A program made the translations under genes and the position numbers. Shown here piece by piece: positions 1 to 8,796 of a stretch of 64,000 nucleotides of DNA (position 1 is the first letter of the stretch; every line of letters begins with the position of its first letter). The DNA lies in the NCBI GenBank assembly GCA_014695325.1, contig JACJNZ010000039.1:868001-932000 (forward strand), read 5' to 3'. Under the pieces are notes generated by a model that saw only the letters and a program-made list of their open reading frames with translations, was not told where the DNA came from and made no database searches. Origin of the DNA: Cyanobacteria bacterium FACHB-502. Lineage in GTDB: Bacteria; Cyanobacteriota; Cyanobacteriia; Elainellales; Elainellaceae.

Positions 1-1445
1 CGCAAAACGTTCAGCTTCAAAATGCTTCAGATGTTTCATCTGTCGAAGATTTACTGATAACAGAACAAACAGCACCTTTTCGAAGCTTTAATAAACGAAT
101 TGTCGCGCTGTTTCAAAACTTGGGAACGTTGGCTTTATTAGCGATCGCATTTCCCTTTAATCTCACGGTTGTTCTTTTATCGCTGCTGTGGAGCTGGATT
201 AGTCGTCCTTTCCAGAAACCTCGTACGGTTGCTGAGTTTCCCAAAACGGTATTAATTGCGGGAGCAAGAATGACCAAAACGCTGCAACTGGCGCGATCGT
301 TTTATGAAGCCGGACATCGCGCAATTATTATCGACACTGAGAAATTCTGGCTGAACGGTAATCAATACTCGAATGCAGTTGATGCATTTTATACAGTTCC
401 TGACCCTGCTAAAGATTGGGAAGGCTATCAACGAAAACTGCGATCGATCGCTGAGCAAGAGAAAGTTGATTTATTTATTCCGGTTGCCATTTTTGCAGTG
501 ATTTACCCAGACGGTGTCAATGAACATCCGCTCGAAGGCTACTGTGAAGTGTTGCACTTTAATGCCGACACTACACGAATGCTAGACGACAAATTTGCGT
601 TTGCGGAAAAGGCGCGATCGTTAGGCTTATCCGTTCCCAAATCGTTCAAAATCACTGCACCAGAACAAGTTTTGAATTTCGACTTTTCACAAGAGCAGAA
701 TCCCTACATTCTCAAAAGCATTCCTTACGATGCTGTGCGTCGCCTGGACATGACTAAACTGCCCTGCGCCACGCCTGAAGAAACGGCTGCTTTTGTGAAC
801 AGCTTACCGATCAGCGAAGACAAGCCCTGGATTATGCAGGAGTTTATTCGCGGCAAGGAATACTGCACCCACAGCACCGTGCGGAACGGCAAATCAACAC
901 TCTACTGCTGCTGTCCCTCCTCGGCGTTTCAAGTGAACTACGAGAATGTCGATAAACCCGAAATTAGCGACTGGATCACCCGTCTTCTCGCAGGCGTTGA
1001 CGGCATCGGACAGGCTTCTTTTGACATCATTCAAACCGAAGATGGAACCGTTTACCCGATCGAGTGTAACCCTCGCACTCATACGGCAGTGACGCTGTTC
1101 TACAACCACCCCGGCGTCGCAGATGCTTACCTCAATCCAGAACCCCCCGCCGAACCCCTACACCCGCTTCCAGATGCCAAGCCGACCTACTGGCTCTATC
1201 ACGAACTCTGGCGATTGAATGAGGTGCTATTTCCCCGAAAGGGAACTGCGAAGCAACCGATCAAACAGCTTCAAACCTGGTTGAGCAACATCACAAGCGG
1301 CACAGATGCCCTGTTCAGAGTCAACGATCCCCTCCCGTTTCTAATGGTGCATCACTGGCAAATTCCCTTATTGATTCTCGAAAACTTGCGCCAACTCAGG
1401 GGATGGATCAGAATCGATTTCAATATTGGTGAATTGATTGAGTAG
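1..1445 (+). CDS. mysC: MysC-like ATP-grasp ligase (5' end outside window)
   Basis: The reading frame is open from the left edge (first full codon at base 3). No ATG or GTG occurs before a TTG at 120, so the true start lies off the window and the protein is N-terminally incomplete here. A hydrophobic stretch near the visible N-terminus precedes a Rossmann-like 'VLIAGARMTKTLQLARSF' segment and an ATP-grasp core with 'DDKFAFAEKARSLGLSVPKSF', 'PWIMQEFIRGKEYCTHST' and a metal/ATP-binding 'YPIECNPRTHTAVT'. This order and wording match, from memory, the cyanobacterial MysC family, which ligates glycine to 4-deoxygadusol to give mycosporine-glycine, a UV sunscreen. Partners mysA and mysB would be expected just upstream, outside the window. 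Another ATP-grasp ligase of the same family is possible. Confidence 0.75.
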   Translation, partial: QNVQLQNASDVSSVEDLLITEQTAPFRSFNKRIVALFQNLGTLALLAIAFPFNLTVVLLSLLWSWISRPFQKPRTVAEFPKTVLIAGARMTKTLQLARSFYEAGHRAIIIDTEKFWLNGNQYSNAVDAFYTVPDPAKDWEGYQRKLRSIAEQEKVDLFIPVAIFAVIYPDGVNEHPLEGYCEVLHFNADTTRMLDDKFAFAEKARSLGLSVPKSFKITAPEQVLNFDFSQEQNPYILKSIPYDAVRRLDMTKLPCATPEETAAFVNSLPISEDKPWIMQEFIRGKEYCTHSTVRNGKSTLYCCCPSSAFQVNYENVDKPEISDWITRLLAGVDGIGQASFDIIQTEDGTVYPIECNPRTHTAVTLFYNHPGVADAYLNPEPPAEPLHPLPDAKPTYWLYHELWRLNEVLFPRKGTAKQPIKQLQTWLSNITSGTDALFRVNDPLPFLMVHHWQIPLLILENLRQLRGWIRIDFNIGELIE

Positions 1446-1496
1446 TGAATCAGAATTGAAATTGGAGGATAAACACGATTAATTCTTGCAGGATCG

Positions 1497-1994
1497 TTAG
1501 CGATAGTGTAGCTCACGGTGTTTTAAGCCTTTAGATTTCAAAGCTTCTCGATGAGTAAGACACTCTAGAGCCATTGCACCAATATGGCGATTGATGAAAT
1601 AGCGACTCATTACGTCGAGGGAGAGGTATTTGGCTCCAGCAATTAGCCTCAGGCAGTTCGATGCACTACAGAGGCAGATGAAGGGAGAAGTCATATCCCA
1701 TTCAGTGCTGGGGTAGAAAAAAGATAGCTCGTCTCCAGGCTGGATGTCTCGCGCTGCTTTAAGCTCCATCCGGGTAGTATCAACAATGACATTGGGATCA
1801 CAGCTATGATTCAGGTTGGCAAGACAAGCGTAGTCTTCAATGCTAGAGTCGTAGCTGATCTGAATGCTCGTGTAGGTGGGCTTGGCAATAGTTTTGTAGC
1901 TGCTCATCTTGTAAAAGGTTTCACCCTCGGAGATTGGCATTGTTGCGATCAACTGCTTGCCTTTTCCATCGATCGCGGCTTTCACTTGCATCAT
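1497..1994 (-). CDS. SET-domain protein (putative lysine methyltransferase)
   Basis: This 165-aa protein has the hallmarks of a compact SET domain. They are 'LANLNHSCDPN' (the NHSCxPN pseudoknot motif), 'AARDIQPGDELSFFYPSTEW' (the usual [IL]xxGDEL..Y strand with the catalytic-type Tyr), and a Cys-rich 'CLCSASNC' segment at the post-SET position. SET proteins transfer methyl groups from SAM to lysines of proteins; a substrate cannot be told from sequence. ATG at 1994 is preceded by GAGGAG six bases upstream on the coding strand, which fixes the start. It lies 63 bp downstream of, and in the same direction as, the heme-oxygenase-fold gene, so the two probably form one operon that converges on mysC. 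Confidence 0.75.
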   Translation of the reverse strand: MMQVKAAIDGKGKQLIATMPISEGETFYKMSSYKTIAKPTYTSIQISYDSSIEDYACLANLNHSCDPNVIVDTTRMELKAARDIQPGDELSFFYPSTEWDMTSPFICLCSASNCLRLIAGAKYLSLDVMSRYFINRHIGAMALECLTHREALKSKGLKHRELHYR

Positions 1995-2057
1995 GAATTT
2001 CTCCTCACTCTTAAAAATTGTGAATCTCGGCTGTAGAACAAGGGATTAGAGCGCGAT

Positions 2058-2918
2058 TTAGCTAGCGGCAGCTAAGGCTTGTACACTTTCCTGTAGCTCC
2101 TGTTGAACGCGCCGGAAAAACAGCATCTGAACATCGATGAAATGAGCGAATCCCTGCCTTGCCCACTCCCCAATCTGCTCCTCCGTTGCGTTGCTATATT
2201 GAATTGCTTGATTCAGTGCTAGCAGTGCATCATCGGAGTGATCAGCTTCTACTCCCCGCGTCTCGAAAGTGCCATGAATCGCAATCCAATACCAGGGGCT
2301 AACCACTCCCTGTGGGTATTGCACCTTGCTGCGCCGGATAAATTGCCCAAAAGAATTTTTTTTCTGTTCTGAGAAGAACACAGCGTTGATAATACTGCAC
2401 TCATTACTACCAATGGTTTCAGCTCCAGCATGAAATCCGATCGCTCGCACTAGGCTACCAAGGTCATCTGGGCGGGCAGCATATCCTTCTCGCACCTCTT
2501 CCAGTACCTTAGGGAGCCACGCACCCGCTTGGGCAATTTGGTTAACTTCTGCGGGAGTTAGATTGGCGTATTCTGCCAGCTTGTCTAACAGTGCATAGGA
2601 CAATGTTCGATGGGAAACTGCTGTTCTGGGATCGCGGAACTCCTCGATTGAAGCAGAAAACACATGGGCTGCAACATCCATACTGCGTTCGGCGTGAGCT
2701 GCGATCGTACAATTTTGATCTTTAAATAGAGGACTTGAGCCAATCACACTGGCAAGTTGCGGCACCAGAAAGCTGTAGGTTCTACCATAGGTGACAAATC
2801 TCTGCATAAAAGTGTAGAGGGTCTTAGGACTGACCACAGCCTCTCTACAGGAAAGCTCCATCACCCGATTGATGGAAGGCTCGTCAAACCAGCACTGCAA
2901 GGTTTCTAGCGTAATCAT
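2058..2918 (-). CDS. Heme-oxygenase-fold (DUF3865/CADD-like) protein
   Basis: This 286-aa, almost entirely helical protein has no signal peptide or membrane segment. The segments 'GFHAGAETIGSNEC' (161-174) and 'WYWIAIHGTFE' (209-219) followed by 'VEADHSDDAL' (223-232) resemble the metal-binding helices of heme-oxygenase-like proteins of the DUF3865/CADD group. Candidate ligands are H163, E167, H215, E219 and H227, but the spacing is not the exact HxxxDxxH of proven di-iron oxidases, so catalytic competence is unproven. Members of the fold include di-iron oxidases that act on amino acids or fatty acids. It is the first gene of the pair with the SET protein. The ATG at 2918 has only a weak GAGG upstream. 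The family call is by remembered resemblance. Confidence 0.5.
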   Translation of the reverse strand: MITLETLQCWFDEPSINRVMELSCREAVVSPKTLYTFMQRFVTYGRTYSFLVPQLASVIGSSPLFKDQNCTIAAHAERSMDVAAHVFSASIEEFRDPRTAVSHRTLSYALLDKLAEYANLTPAEVNQIAQAGAWLPKVLEEVREGYAARPDDLGSLVRAIGFHAGAETIGSNECSIINAVFFSEQKKNSFGQFIRRSKVQYPQGVVSPWYWIAIHGTFETRGVEADHSDDALLALNQAIQYSNATEEQIGEWARQGFAHFIDVQMLFFRRVQQELQESVQALAAAS

Positions 2919-3499
2919 TTTTAAGCCTCACATCTGTGGAAATTTGATTGTTTGTCGCAAAAGCGAACCTACACTGCGTTAGTGGAGCAGCGTTTAGACC
3001 CGCTCAAACTCAATGCAAAGCCAGCTATTCTCAGGAGAGTGACGATCGCGCTCAATCACTCCTTCTAAGGAGAACAGCACAGGACTGAAAAGGTTAGTAT
3101 GAACTGCTGTCAAATGATGTTGACAACCAGTTTGGTACTAGAAAGCTTACAAAGACATCAAACTGATTCAACGTTTATTGAATCAAGCACATAACCCGCA
3201 CTTGTGCGCCAAGAAAAAGCCTGTGCGAACTTTTAATGAATCACTTGAGGAACACAGAGGGGTGATACTCGGTTGCTAACAGGGAACATCAGCAGGGATG
3301 ACTTAGTGCATCCATAATTTCCACAATTCTTATAATTTTCCAAGGAAATGGGATCAGTAATCCCACGGAAATTAGTCTATTCTCATCCTTGCCTGGCTGC
3401 TTCTCTTCACACTTATCAAACTGATAAGGGGTATAAACCGATAGTTATGACTATCCAGCTTATAGAAATCTTTAAAAGACCTAGGCAGCTTGCCCGGCA
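2919..3499. other. 581-bp gap upstream of the heme-oxygenase-like gene
   Basis: I see no coding sequence or RNA gene here. It should contain the promoter of the minus-strand pair ending at 1497 and the 3' flank of pcrA. Two short perfect inverted repeats are visible: TGGGAT-CAGTA-ATCCCA near 3352-3368 and CTTATCA-AAC-TGATAAG at 3412-3428. Neither is followed by a clear T-run. Confidence 0.5.
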
Positions 3500-5839
3500 C
3501 TACTCAACCTTCTGAAGCGGGGTCAGCTTCGGATCGATAATCTTCTGTCCCATGCCGGGAAACTTGATCGCGAGACAGGCTTTGTTTCCAGCTCCAAAAA
3601 TGTGCGTCACCTGACCTGTGCCAAACGATCGATGAATGACGCGATCACCCACCGTCCAGTCCTGCTGGGGATAGCTGGGGGAACTGGCCGCCTGTTTGCG
3701 AACTTCCCGGATTGGGGTGGTCATCTTTTTGGGAATTGCATTGGCAACGCTGCTGAGCAAAAGCTCCTTCGGCAGTTCCGCTAAGAATAGGGATGGGCTG
3801 GCAGGTTCGCGGGAGCCGTAGAGTCGCCGCTCGCGGGCATAGCTGAGGAACAGACGCTCCTGGGCACGGGTAATGCCGACGTAGCAGAGCCGCCGCTCTT
3901 CTTCCAGGGATTTTGGGTCTTCCAGCGATCGAAAATTGGGAAATAATCCCTGCTCCAGCCCAACGAGAAACACGACCGGGAATTCCAGACCCTTCGAGGA
4001 ATGCAGCGTCATCAGCGAAACTTTTTCCTGGGCGGCTTCGTTCAGGTTATCCAGGTCAGACGCGAGCGAGGCATTTCCCAGGAAGAGCGACAGATTCGAC
4101 TCTTCGTTGTCTTCCTCGAATTGCAGCACGGCGTTGTAAAGTTCCTGCACGTTTTGCAGCCGTTCCAGTGCTTCGTCGGTTCCTTGTTCGCGTAAGTCCT
4201 GCAAGTAGTGGGAATCATCAAGAATGCCCTGCACAATCTCCGATGCTGAAGAGCCTTCGATCTTCGACTGCCAGTATTCAATCATCCGACCAAACGCCAG
4301 TACAGGCTTCGCCGATCGCCCTGCCAAAGTCTGCACCGAAGTTTCATCGCTGAGGATTTGCCAGAGGGGAACGTTTAGCTCCCTCGCAGCTTTTTCGAGC
4401 CGATCGATCGTTGCCTTTCCAATTCCCCGCCGAGGTACGTTGATAATCCGCTTCAGGCTGATCGAGTCGTCTGGGTTTGCAATCAGGCGCAGATATGCCA
4501 GCACGTCTTTCACTTCTTTGCGATCGTAAAACCGCAGCCCGCCGACAATGTTGTAAGGAATGCCATATTGCACCAACACTTCTTCAAACGCCCGTGACTG
4601 AGCATTCGTGCGGTAAAGAATTGCAAAACTGCCCCAGTTTAGCTCCGGGTTGACCAGTTCCATTTCCCGCAGCCGATTCACCACAAAGTTCGCTTCCTGA
4701 ATTTCGTCGTCGGCGCGATAGCAGTAAATTGTTTCTCCCGATCCGCGAGTCGGACGTAATACTTTATCAATTCGCTCAGTGTTGTTTTCGATTAGCTCAT
4801 TTGCTGCCTGGAGAATATTTTCAGTCGAGCGATAATTCTCCTCTAGCTTGACCATTGTGCGCGTATCGTCATCTGGCAAGCCATCACCAAAGTCATCCTG
4901 AAAGTTCATCAGAATCGTAAAATCAGCCGCCCGAAAGGAATAAATCGACTGATCTGCATCACCCACCACGAAAATCGATCGATAATTCCAGTCGTTAAAT
5001 TTCTTCGTATCTTCGCCATTCGTGACGAGTAATCGAATCAAGTCATACTGGGTGCGGTTCGTATCCTGATATTCATCAACCAGAATATGTCTAAACCGTT
5101 TATGCCAGTATGCCAACACCTGATCATTCTGCCGGAATAAACGCACAGGCATCAAAATCAGATCGTCAAAATCTAGCGCATTATTCTGAGCGAGCCGCTG
5201 CTCATACTCGGCGTAAATATTTGAAATCACCCGTCCGCGATAGTTGTTCTGCTCCCGCTCCAGGTCGCTCGGCGAATAGCCCTGGTTTTTAGCATTGCTG
5301 ATCGCATAGCGAACCGATCGCGGCTCAAATTTCTTATCGTCCAAATTCTGATTAACGACAATTTCTTTGACTAAACTCTGCGCGTCCGACTCGTCCAAAA
5401 TTGAAAAGTTACGGTTCCAGGAATAGCCCTGCTCACTCTGATACTTCTCGATGTCAAACCGCAGAATCCGGGCACAAAGGGCGTGAAACGTGCCAATCCA
5501 GAGTTCTTTCGTAATGGTTTTATAAACGTGCGATCGCAGCCGAGTTTGCTCAAATGGCGCAAGCGCATCCAGCGGCTTTCCGTACTTTTGCTCCGCTTCC
5601 TGTTCAGAAAACAGCTTCTCGATCCGCTCCTTCATCTCCTTCGCCGCTTTGTTAGTAAAGGTGACAGCCAGGATATTTTCCGGGTCAACGCGATGATTCA
5701 TCACCATATTGGCAATCCGGTAGGTCAGGGCGCGGGTCTTCCCCGATCCGGCTCCGGCAACCACAAGCAAAGGACCACAGTAATGCTCAACGGCACGCCG
5801 CTGGGAAGGATTGAGATGACTGGTAATGTCAACGCGCAT
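3500..5839 (-). CDS. pcrA: UvrD/PcrA-type superfamily 1 DNA helicase
   Basis: This is a 3'-5' ATP-dependent helicase of nucleotide-excision and replication-fork repair. The 779-aa protein has the full SF1 motif series: Q-motif and Walker A 'VVAGAGSGKTRALTYRI' near the N-terminus, 'AVTFTNKAAKEM', Walker B 'ILVDEYQDTN', 'VVGDADQSIYSFRAAD', 'LEENYRST', 'LMTLHSSKGLEF' and 'EERRLCYVGITRAQERL'. The C-terminal part ends in a Tudor-like 'VGDRVIHRSFGTGQV' module, typical of PcrA/UvrD proteins that contact RNA polymerase. Length and start (ATG at 5839, immediately before MRVDITSHLNPSQ) fit the family. It is transcribed alone, away from leuC. Assignment to PcrA rather than UvrD/Rep follows usage for cyanobacteria. 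Confidence 0.93.
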   Translation of the reverse strand: MRVDITSHLNPSQRRAVEHYCGPLLVVAGAGSGKTRALTYRIANMVMNHRVDPENILAVTFTNKAAKEMKERIEKLFSEQEAEQKYGKPLDALAPFEQTRLRSHVYKTITKELWIGTFHALCARILRFDIEKYQSEQGYSWNRNFSILDESDAQSLVKEIVVNQNLDDKKFEPRSVRYAISNAKNQGYSPSDLEREQNNYRGRVISNIYAEYEQRLAQNNALDFDDLILMPVRLFRQNDQVLAYWHKRFRHILVDEYQDTNRTQYDLIRLLVTNGEDTKKFNDWNYRSIFVVGDADQSIYSFRAADFTILMNFQDDFGDGLPDDDTRTMVKLEENYRSTENILQAANELIENNTERIDKVLRPTRGSGETIYCYRADDEIQEANFVVNRLREMELVNPELNWGSFAILYRTNAQSRAFEEVLVQYGIPYNIVGGLRFYDRKEVKDVLAYLRLIANPDDSISLKRIINVPRRGIGKATIDRLEKAARELNVPLWQILSDETSVQTLAGRSAKPVLAFGRMIEYWQSKIEGSSASEIVQGILDDSHYLQDLREQGTDEALERLQNVQELYNAVLQFEEDNEESNLSLFLGNASLASDLDNLNEAAQEKVSLMTLHSSKGLEFPVVFLVGLEQGLFPNFRSLEDPKSLEEERRLCYVGITRAQERLFLSYARERRLYGSREPASPSLFLAELPKELLLSSVANAIPKKMTTPIREVRKQAASSPSYPQQDWTVGDRVIHRSFGTGQVTHIFGAGNKACLAIKFPGMGQKIIDPKLTPLQKVE

Positions 5840-6252
5840 GAGAATCCAGAGATGAAAAGACAGGAGGAGCAGTTCAATAGAGCTAACCGCCGATGATATA
5901 TCTTATCGTCTGCGTCTGAGGATCGATCGCCTTTCGCGGGGACGATCGCCACCGATGAGAGACGGCATTGTACCTAAAACTTATGAGAAGAGTTAGGGTT
6001 CCTGCAAAGGATTAATCACCGATTTACTCATATTTCAAATGTCTTAATCTTGCATTAAAAATATATTGGACATTACCAATCGCCCCTCCTAATCTGGAAG
6101 AGTTAGGTCTAACATCAGCACTTCAGCAAACGAAAGCACCACTGCTCGTTTCACAATCCTCCAGAATTGGGGGATCTAGAGGGGAGAAACCCTCCAGCCA
6201 CCTGTCACACATCCTTGAGTTCACACATCCTTGAGTAAGGACGATTGCCGCT
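5840..6252. other. Divergent promoter region of pcrA and leuC, with repeats
   Basis: This 413-bp gap is non-coding and separates divergently transcribed genes. It contains HIP1-type GATCG sites near 5880-5960, a 'TCCTCCAGAATTGGGGG' element at 6155-6184 that recurs in inverted form at 30657-30690, and a perfect 16-bp tandem duplication at 6205-6236 just before the leuC ribosome-binding site. The repeat unit TCACACATCCTTGAGT ends 16 bases before the start codon. Confidence 0.55.
6205..6236. repeat. Perfect 16-bp tandem duplication in the leuC leader
   Basis: TCACACATCCTTGAGT occurs twice head to tail with no mismatch. The second copy runs into the AAGG that precedes the leuC start. It is one of about fifteen such two-copy duplications in this window, each with its own unit. 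Confidence 0.9.
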
Positions 6253-7656
6253 ATGAGTAAGGGCACACTGTTCGACAAAGTTTGGGATCTTCACACCGTC
6301 AACACGCTTCCCTCAGGACAAACACAGCTCTTTATCGGGCTGCACCTGATCCACGAAGTCACCAGTCCACAAGCGTTTTCGATGCTGCGCGATCGCGGAT
6401 TAAAAGTGCTGTTTCCCGATCGCACCATTGCCACGGTGGATCACATTGTGCCAACGATCAGCCAGACGCGTCCGTTTGTTGATCCGATGGCGGAAGAAAT
6501 GATGCAGGAACTCGAAAAGAACTGCAAAGAGAATAACATCCGCTTTTATAACATTGGCTCTGGGGGTCAGGGCATTGTTCACGTCATCGCTCCCGAACAG
6601 GGATTGACGCAGCCCGGCATGACGATCGCCTGCGGAGATAGCCACACTTCCACGCATGGCGCATTTGGCGCAATCGCCTTTGGCATTGGAACCAGCCAGG
6701 TACGGGATGTTCTTGCTTCGCAAACCCTGGCACTCGCTAAGCTCAACGTCCGCAAGATTGAAGTCAACGGGACCCTGCCCACCGGAGTCTATGCCAAAGA
6801 CGTGATCCTCCACATCATTCGCACCCTAGGCGTGACGGGTGGCGTGGGCTATGCCTACGAATTCGCTGGAACGACCTTTGAGCAGATGAGCATGGAAGAG
6901 CGCATGACCGTCTGCAATATGGCGATCGAAGGCGGTGCCCGCTGCGGCTATGTCAACCCCGATCGAGTCACTTATGACTATCTCAAAGACCGCAATTTCG
7001 CACCCAAAGGACCCGAGTGGGATCGGGCGATCGACTGGTGGAATTCCCTTCGCAGCAATGCCGATGCTCAATACGATGATATCGTCGTGTTTGATGCCGC
7101 TGACATTCCGCCAACTGTTACTTGGGGCATTACACCCGGTCAGGGAATTGGGGTCAATCAAACGGTTCCTACCCCAGAGGAGTTGTCGGACCAGGATCGG
7201 GCACTGGCTCAAGAGGCATACAGCTACATGAACCTGCAACCCGGACAGCCCATTCAAGGAACGGCGATCGACGTTTGCTTCATCGGAAGCTGCACCAATG
7301 GACGCATCAGTGATTTACGCGAGGCTGCCAAAATTGCCAAGGGTCGATTTGTTGCGGAAGGCATCAAAGCGTTTGTCGTTCCCGGCTCCGAGCAGGTGAA
7401 GCAGCAAGCAGAAGCCGAAGGGCTAAACGAAATCTTTGAAGCGGCAGGCTTTGAGTGGCGAGAACCGGGCTGCTCGATGTGTCTGGCAATGAATCCCGAT
7501 AAGCTCGTCGGCAACCAAATTAGCGCGTCCTCCTCTAACCGCAACTTCAAGGGACGGCAAGGCTCTGCGTCCGGTCGTACCCTGCTGATGAGCCCGGCAA
7601 TGGTGGCGGCAGCGGCAATCACAGGCCAAGTGACTGATGTCCGAGCACTGCTCTAA
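6253..7656 (+). CDS. leuC: 3-isopropylmalate dehydratase large subunit
   Basis: LeuC with LeuD isomerises 2-isopropylmalate to 3-isopropylmalate in leucine synthesis, using a cytosolic [4Fe-4S] aconitase-type enzyme. At 467 aa it is full length. '[11 protein letters not shown]' at the N-terminus, '[13 protein letters not shown]', and the cluster cysteines C347 ('[10 protein letters not shown]'), C407 and C410 ('GCSMC') are all present at the positions usual for bacterial LeuC. The C-terminus '[18 protein letters not shown]' is also typical. ATG at 6253 follows a TAAGGA sequence. leuD follows in the same direction after 226 bp. Confidence 0.97.
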
Positions 7657-7882
7657 TATCCCTTCCTTCACTAGAAATGCTGGAACGCTGGCCGTTTGGC
7701 AAGACCTCAGACGGGGCAGATGAGTTAGGAGCGTTCGTTTTAACCGGACGCAAGACAGCAACTTCCTCTTTGCTCAAAGCCTGTGAGGTCGAGAACGAAC
7801 CACTACCCTAGAGCTGATTCCCCTTCCTCACTTCCTCATCTCCTACCCCCTCACTCACCCACTTACCGATAAGGAGAACCCC

Positions 7883-8485
7883 ATGAGCCAAATTCAAACC
7901 CTTTCTGGTCGCGCCGTTCCTCTCATCGGCAACGACATCGACACCGATCGCATTATTCCTGCCCGTTTCCTCAAGTGCGTTACCTTCGACGGATTAGGCG
8001 CACAGGTCTTTGCAGACGATCGCGACCAGATGCAGGGACAGCATCCCTTTGACCAGTCGCAGTATCAGGGCGCAACTGTTCTGGTAGCAAATCGCAACTT
8101 TGGCTGTGGATCTTCTCGCGAACACGCACCACAGGCAATCTCAAAGTGGGGCATTCGGGCGATCGTGAGCGAAAGCTTCGCCGAGATTTTCTTTGGCAAC
8201 TGTGTCGCGATGGGCATTCCCTGCGTCACAGCAGATCCAGCAGTCGTGACAGAGCTACAGCAACGGATTGCGGCAAATCCTCAGGTATCAGTCACAGTAG
8301 ATCTGGAAGCAATGCAGGTGCGGGTCAATGACTTTGTGGCTCCGGTGCAGATGGGAGCCGGACCTCGCAGTATGTTCCTCAGCGGAACCTGGGATGCTTG
8401 TGGTCAGCTCGTTGCCCAAGCCGATCGCATTCGTCAAACCGCCGCAAACTTGCCCTATGTGAGCTGGAGCCAGGCAGCTTCTTGA
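7883..8485 (+). CDS. leuD: 3-isopropylmalate dehydratase small subunit
   Basis: This is the small, swivelling subunit of isopropylmalate isomerase, 200 aa. '[16 protein letters not shown]' near the N-terminus, '[16 protein letters not shown]' in the middle and '[15 protein letters not shown]' are characteristic LeuD motifs. The ATG at 7883 is preceded by AAGGAG at a 6-base spacing, a strong ribosome-binding site. The 226-bp space from leuC holds no gene and includes a C/T-rich tract (about 7808-7875), so leuD may be co-transcribed or have its own promoter. Confidence 0.97.
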
Positions 8486-8796
8486 AACCTCTTCGTATCC
8501 CCTAATTATCCCTAAAAGAACAGGGCATACTGGATGCAGTGTGTCCTATTAAACTGCTATAACTCAAAAGATAAGGAATCGAGCCTTCGCTTAACGGTCT
8601 AGCACTGAATGATTTTCGGTGGATAGAGTGAAAATATAAGTAACTTTCTCAGGCTCGTAGCCAGTCCAATGATATGTTCTATTCGTACTCGCTGTTTTGG
8701 ATTCGGGATCTCTGCTCCCGCTACCAATGCAGATTTGCTTTTTCACCCCAAATCAGCGAAATTTAACTCTCTCAAAGAATTTTTGAGGCTCCGCCA
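8486..8796. other. 311-bp gap between leuD and the BFN-domain gene
   Basis: It is non-coding as far as I can see, with no convincing hairpin-plus-T-run terminator and no ribosome-binding site beyond weak purines. It probably holds the promoter of the gene starting at 8797. Confidence 0.4.

Follow-up and report, generated by a model that had tools for sequence, protein, structure and literature searches.

A predicted dimetal oxidase gene recurrently paired with a BurB-like SET gene in cyanobacteria

The 64,000-nucleotide stretch of DNA from Cyanobacteria bacterium FACHB-502 that we analysed (the window) carries near its start two minus-strand genes, one for a 286-residue heme-oxygenase-fold (HO) protein and one for a SET-domain protein, which form a two-gene operon converging on an orphan, plus-strand paralogue of mysC (Table 1). 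A preliminary description of this DNA had already reported this arrangement, and we find all three genes where it placed them. What do the HO and SET proteins do together, and does the neighbouring mysC have a part in it? A Shine-Dalgarno-like sequence lies ahead of each minus-strand gene, and a promoter and terminator scan gave results at or below chance. The true start of the MysC-like gene lies 28 bases upstream of the window (G000:C34:867973).

Table 1. Genes and predicted metal-ligand codons at the start of the window (window positions).
Feature	Position	Strand	Basis or comment
Heme-oxygenase-fold (HO) protein, 286 aa, predicted dimetal oxidase (HDO-like)	2058..2918	-	AlphaFold2, Foldseek, alignment
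SET-domain methyltransferase, 165 aa, BurB-like	1497..1994	-	Pfam SET 39.1 bits, E 1.1e-9; BurB matches
Spacer from HO stop to SET start, 63 bp, with AGGAG-type ribosome-binding site	1995..2057	-	sequence
Orphan MysC-family ATP-grasp gene, convergent bystander outside the cassette	1..1445 (ORF 3-1445)	+	PRK06849 459 bits
E93 codon, predicted metal ligand 1 (core helix 1)	2640..2642	-	invariant in 37 rows
H103 codon, predicted metal ligand 2	2610..2612	-	alignment; Arg in L081 and L082 only
E167 codon, predicted metal ligand 3 (core helix 2)	2418..2420	-	invariant in alignment
H215 codon, predicted metal ligand 4 (core helix 3)	2274..2276	-	invariant save degenerate L082
E224 to H227 codons (E-x2-H), predicted metal ligands 5 and 6	2238..2249	-	invariant save degenerate L082

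The mysC neighbour

The neighbour does belong to the MysC family of ATP-grasp genes, and most of its relatives lie in mysABC operons, as judged from flanking genes of the dehydroquinate-synthase-like and O-methyltransferase-like kinds. The window copy, however, has no mysA or mysB beside it, either within 10 kb upstream or among the first genes of the window, and HO and SET were absent from every other mysC locus that we examined. The preliminary description had raised the possibility that the pair modifies a mycosporine intermediate, and we considered tailoring of any product of the MysC-like enzyme. This idea draws on the adjacency and convergence of the genes in this genome and on the presence of HDOs near ATP-grasp ligases elsewhere (PMC13185094; locus L083), but synteny speaks against it. 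The window mysC lies near pcrA, and the same-genus genome G455 (locus L103) keeps both an orphan mysC (78-81% identical) and pcrA (94%), separated by other genes; a profile search found no HO in G455, and it has no SET. A MysC-like match was missing from all other HO loci examined, and in none of them does the pair adjoin mysC. A second, complete mysABC sits on another contig (C52) of the genome that holds the window, and the window mysC is convergent and orphan. We consider a mycosporine role extremely unlikely and rejected the link on synteny; the mysC gene is a chance neighbour of the pair and not a member of the cassette.

A heme-oxygenase fold with a predicted dimetal site

The HO protein had no family match in Pfam, NCBIfam, PHROGs or PADLOC, and a PDB sequence search with the protein or its profile returned nothing significant. 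Its AlphaFold2 model, built with 21 homologues (mean pLDDT 93.6, pTM 0.91), has the heme-oxygenase fold: Foldseek matched it to HDO structures with probability 1.00 and TM scores of 0.42-0.58. The PDB matches comprised the DUF3865 structures 3b5p and 3b5o, HamA, PSPTO1738, PolF, CtCADD, BesC, AetD and TenA, with 3b5p (Npun_F6505) at the top. Modelling bore out the fold that had been described as CADD/DUF3865-like, but by sequence the protein does not belong to DUF3865. The Pfam model PF12981 matches neither the window copy nor its relatives, and we rejected membership of that family. The two families do resemble each other, as both are cyanobacterial and have similar EE-x9-H and E-x5-E motifs, and a statistically weak profile comparison pairs E93, H103, E167 and E173 with equivalent DUF3865 residues. 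The only PF12981 match in this genome is, however, a distinct gene on another contig (C74), which adjoins a Rieske oxygenase. The same arrangement, with the DUF3865 gene directly upstream of the Rieske oxygenase, was seen at L122:215-2190 and L121:249-2211, one copy being that of this genome (G000:C74).

The HDO dimetal motif is E-H-E-H-(D/E)-H, exemplified in FlcD by E181, H191, E244 and H274 (PMC11363339). In the HO protein the residues E93, H103, E167, H215, E224 and H227 make up a complete motif of this kind, and 35 of the 37 rows of the alignment retain all six. These ligands were picked by alignment and motif and not by coordinates. The E-x9-H spacing of E93 and H103 is that of E181 and H191 in FlcD (PMC11363339). 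The grouping of H215 with E224 and H227 is supported by a distant HO relative, at locus L160, which has a compact helix-3 motif, H-x4-E-x2-H. We predict that the HO protein binds two metals through these six residues. Three of them (E167, H215 and H227) had been named in the preliminary description, which missed E93, H103 and E224. It had also named E219, which is not conserved, and H163, which is invariant but falls outside the canonical motif; E173 is invariant as well. With regard to the Tyr and Lys donor that a CADD-type pABA synthase sacrifices from its own chain, the HO alignment has an invariant Y146 and a K198 conserved within the close clade.

The fold and the order of ligands are those of known HDOs (UndA, BesC, CADD, AetD, PolF, FlcD and HamA), all with seven helices. 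Unlike these, the HO protein matches no solved HDO or Pfam family by sequence, has different partner genes, and spaces the ligands of core helix 3 further apart (H-x8-E-x2-H), this helix being preceded by a beta hairpin. Could it be a non-metal protein like TenA or PqqC, or a degenerate scaffold that lacks oxidase activity? TenA structures are among the Foldseek matches, and one relative (L082) has lost its helix-3 ligands, but the near-complete retention of the six positions across the alignment makes this highly unlikely. The L082 protein itself (L082:8286-9170) keeps E93, H163, E167 and E173.

The HO family is rare. A single-sequence search found it in 4 of 386 genomes of the phylum; a profile search found it in 21 of 390 genomes of the class, and sampling at the level of the order gave 18 of 293. 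A plasmid or phage origin of the pair was rejected, as neither plasmid nor PHROGs or PADLOC matches were found.

Recurrence of the pair and the likeness of SET to BurB

Our in-depth sampling covered cyanobacterial genomes. The closest HO relatives form a clade of nine proteins (support 98/97), and at six of these loci (L070, L075, L078, L079, L080 and the window) an intact SET gene lies directly downstream of HO on the same strand. At a seventh, in genome G605, a decayed SET with stops and a frame change (L076:9530-10000) lies directly behind an intact HO; elsewhere in this genome a close paralogue of SET has stayed intact, next to genes for a dCache kinase and an A-PCP-reductase. The distant locus L160 has a reversed pair, with SET directly upstream of HO, and the HO-paired SETs fall in two separate clades. 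Of about 40 loci, 8 have SET next to HO, counting the window and the decayed SET. SET genes occur about 38 times in 194 background genomes (35 of the 194 carry SET), whereas a scan of 13 other HO genomes found none. The probability of HO-SET adjacency arising by chance is about 5e-9 for even three independent cases. Thus, HO and SET are a recurring, functionally linked pair, far beyond chance. The proposed linkage of HO with SET is upheld by this survey of co-occurrence, while the proposed linkage with mysC fails, as no other HO locus examined has it. A literature search for an HDO-SET combination found none.

The other two close-clade loci, L003 and L069, have in place of SET genes for a desaturase-fold protein, for a PrmC-like methyltransferase and for an SMR exporter. 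Desaturase-fold proteins occur near some HO genes, and the one in L003, a 'fatty acid desaturase', is similar to GntB, an arginine hydroxylase.

Which substrate might the SET protein methylate? It carries an NHSC motif, Tyr94 and post-SET cysteines (CxCx4C). Its best PDB match in both sequence (E 4.2e-14) and fold is BurB (9l4t, 9l4v), a SET-domain enzyme that S-methylates free methionine to S-methylmethionine (PMC12542666, PMC7496086). The fold match to BurB scores 7.1e-11 at a TM of about 0.7, and the best of the unrelated entries after it scores 1.2e-6. With the family profile the margin is wide (BurB 1.4e-25, next best 1.8e-12), and for the divergent type II SET BurB is again the best solved match, by a smaller margin. 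The two proteins are of the same size and share Y-x-S-T-E, NHSC/LHSC and the post-SET cysteines. They differ in that identity over the fold alignment is about 32%, some residues that contact SAM are changed, and homologues of BurI, BurD and BurE were not seen beside the window SET. The BurB side chains that bind SAM (R42, H72, H93, R133 and H138) correspond here to K11, T42, H63, S103 and L108, one identical and one conservative. BurB touches methionine through its main chain only; because of this, and because H138 and R133 are replaced by L108 and S103, methionine as the substrate is not provable from sequence.

Other cyanobacterial SETs of this family, at loci where SET is not paired with HO, adjoin genes for an aminotransferase, 2-hydroxyacid dehydrogenase, 2OG-oxygenase, BesD/HalD-like halogenase, LysA-like decarboxylase and A-PCP-reductase. 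As BurB is the closest solved match and the relatives adjoin amino-acid enzymes, a free amino acid is the better guess, and the SET protein most likely acts on a free amino acid or a close derivative rather than on protein lysine. The lysine-modifying role assumed in the preliminary description is weakened accordingly, since a methionine S-methyltransferase is the closest solved homologue in both sequence and structure.

We also considered that SET might be a protein lysine methyltransferase acting on its partner HDO, for example at K198, or on another protein, in a self-modifying or regulatory module comparable to CADD, which consumes its own side chains (PMC13108848). The NHSC motif, the tyrosine and the post-SET cysteines are canonical for SET, and in one alignment (A2) all 9 close-clade HO proteins have lysine at position 198, against 0 of the 11 others. 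The same lysine is, however, found in L003 and L069, which have no adjacent SET, and in three rows of other clades in a larger alignment, and we rejected K198 as a discriminating sign of a SET target. Histone enzymes score well below BurB against the window SET in sequence and in fold, and the surroundings of its relatives point to amino-acid chemistry. We regard lysine methylation as unlikely.

Several SET loci have gene contents of their own. At L041:3875-7431, L042:8159-11061 and L044:2311-7760 a BurB-like SET has an LL-DAP-aminotransferase-like gene and one for a 2-hydroxyacid dehydrogenase as neighbours, together with a 2OG-Fe oxygenase or a LysA-like decarboxylase (the latter in L044); as a set, these genes parallel the route to DMSP by transamination. 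At L040:7859-9253 a gene for a BesD/HalD-like amino-acid halogenase is directly upstream of a BurB-like SET gene, and at L043:8807-10873 an ATP-grasp domain of the D-Ala-D-Ala-ligase type is fused to a C-terminal SET domain and adjoins a second SET gene.

A proposed two-enzyme pathway and its possible link to sensing

Based on these findings, we propose that the pair is a cassette of an HDO and a BurB-like methyltransferase that makes a small metabolite derived from an amino acid. We hold this explanation, the best of those considered, with moderate confidence. The HO protein would bind two metals and activate O2 against a small substrate; the substrates of characterised HDOs are mostly amino or fatty acids (PMC13108848). 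The SET protein would carry out SAM-dependent methylation of a free amino acid or close derivative, with the conversion of methionine to S-methylmethionine as the precedent. One enzyme may feed or finish the substrate of the other, in an order that we can only infer. The close HO relatives without SET, L003 and L069, count against the cassette.

The product may be sensed or exported in those relatives that have a dCache kinase, a PQ-loop protein or an SMR exporter. A dCache histidine kinase lies near HO in many loci of both HO clades, and many HO relatives adjoin a PQ-loop-type membrane protein (named by the look of the sequence, with no Pfam match) or an SMR exporter. Across the two clades the sensor part of the HO-linked dCache protein is 37-43% identical and the kinase part 22-27%. 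At L075, L076, L078, L008, L010 and other loci the dCache sensor domain is kept beside HO, and the attached kinase domain varies by clade. In a check of these sensors for an amino-acid or amine motif, the WY pair was present but the Arg of the amino-acid motif was missing, and we assigned no ligand. Genes for chemotaxis proteins (CheW, response regulator or MCP type) lie beside HO in L154, L156, L159 and L163. These neighbours suggest that the HO product is sensed or exported in many relatives. For the window copy they do not, as no dCache kinase or SMR gene was found within 10 kb upstream or in the 64-kb window, nor a PQ-loop gene nearby; since kinase and SMR are missing there, a signal role is unsupported at this locus.

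An alternative is that the HDO belongs to a sensory pathway, in which it would produce or break down a ligand that the adjacent dCache kinase or a Pix-like chemotaxis system recognises and that SET tunes by methylation. The kept sensor domain in both clades and the chemotaxis neighbours fit this idea, as does L169, a dCache-SET locus without HO. Sensor kinases are common in cyanobacteria, however, and the window copy has no dCache kinase nearby. We think it doubtful, and it is compatible with the cassette explanation rather than exclusive of it. The L169 locus (1867-8773) comprises the dCache kinase, an A-PCP-reductase whose ORF is split by a frame change, and an intact BurB-like SET; in the genome that carries this locus, the SET linked to HO has decayed.

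A more specific form of the cassette explanation is that it yields a new signal derived from an amino acid by oxidation and methylation, possibly a sulfonium: SET would make S-methylmethionine or a related methylated amino acid, the HDO would oxidise it, and the dCache kinase encoded alongside in many relatives would sense the product. We consider this distinctly unlikely.

In sum, the O2 chemistry of HDOs is unusual, and few of these enzymes, about a dozen, have been characterised. The HO family appears to be an unannotated cyanobacterial branch of HDOs with a complete metal motif, repeatedly paired with SET enzymes of a type for which methylation of a free amino acid is known. Additionally, the usual reading that a SET domain means lysine methylation is corrected for these bacterial proteins. 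HO and SET offer a small two-enzyme pathway that is directly testable, and the HO loci hint that HDO chemistry and sensory kinases may be linked. If the proposal of a methylated amino-acid signal is true, it would be the first pathway to join an HDO with a SET enzyme and would represent a new form of small-molecule signalling in cyanobacteria.
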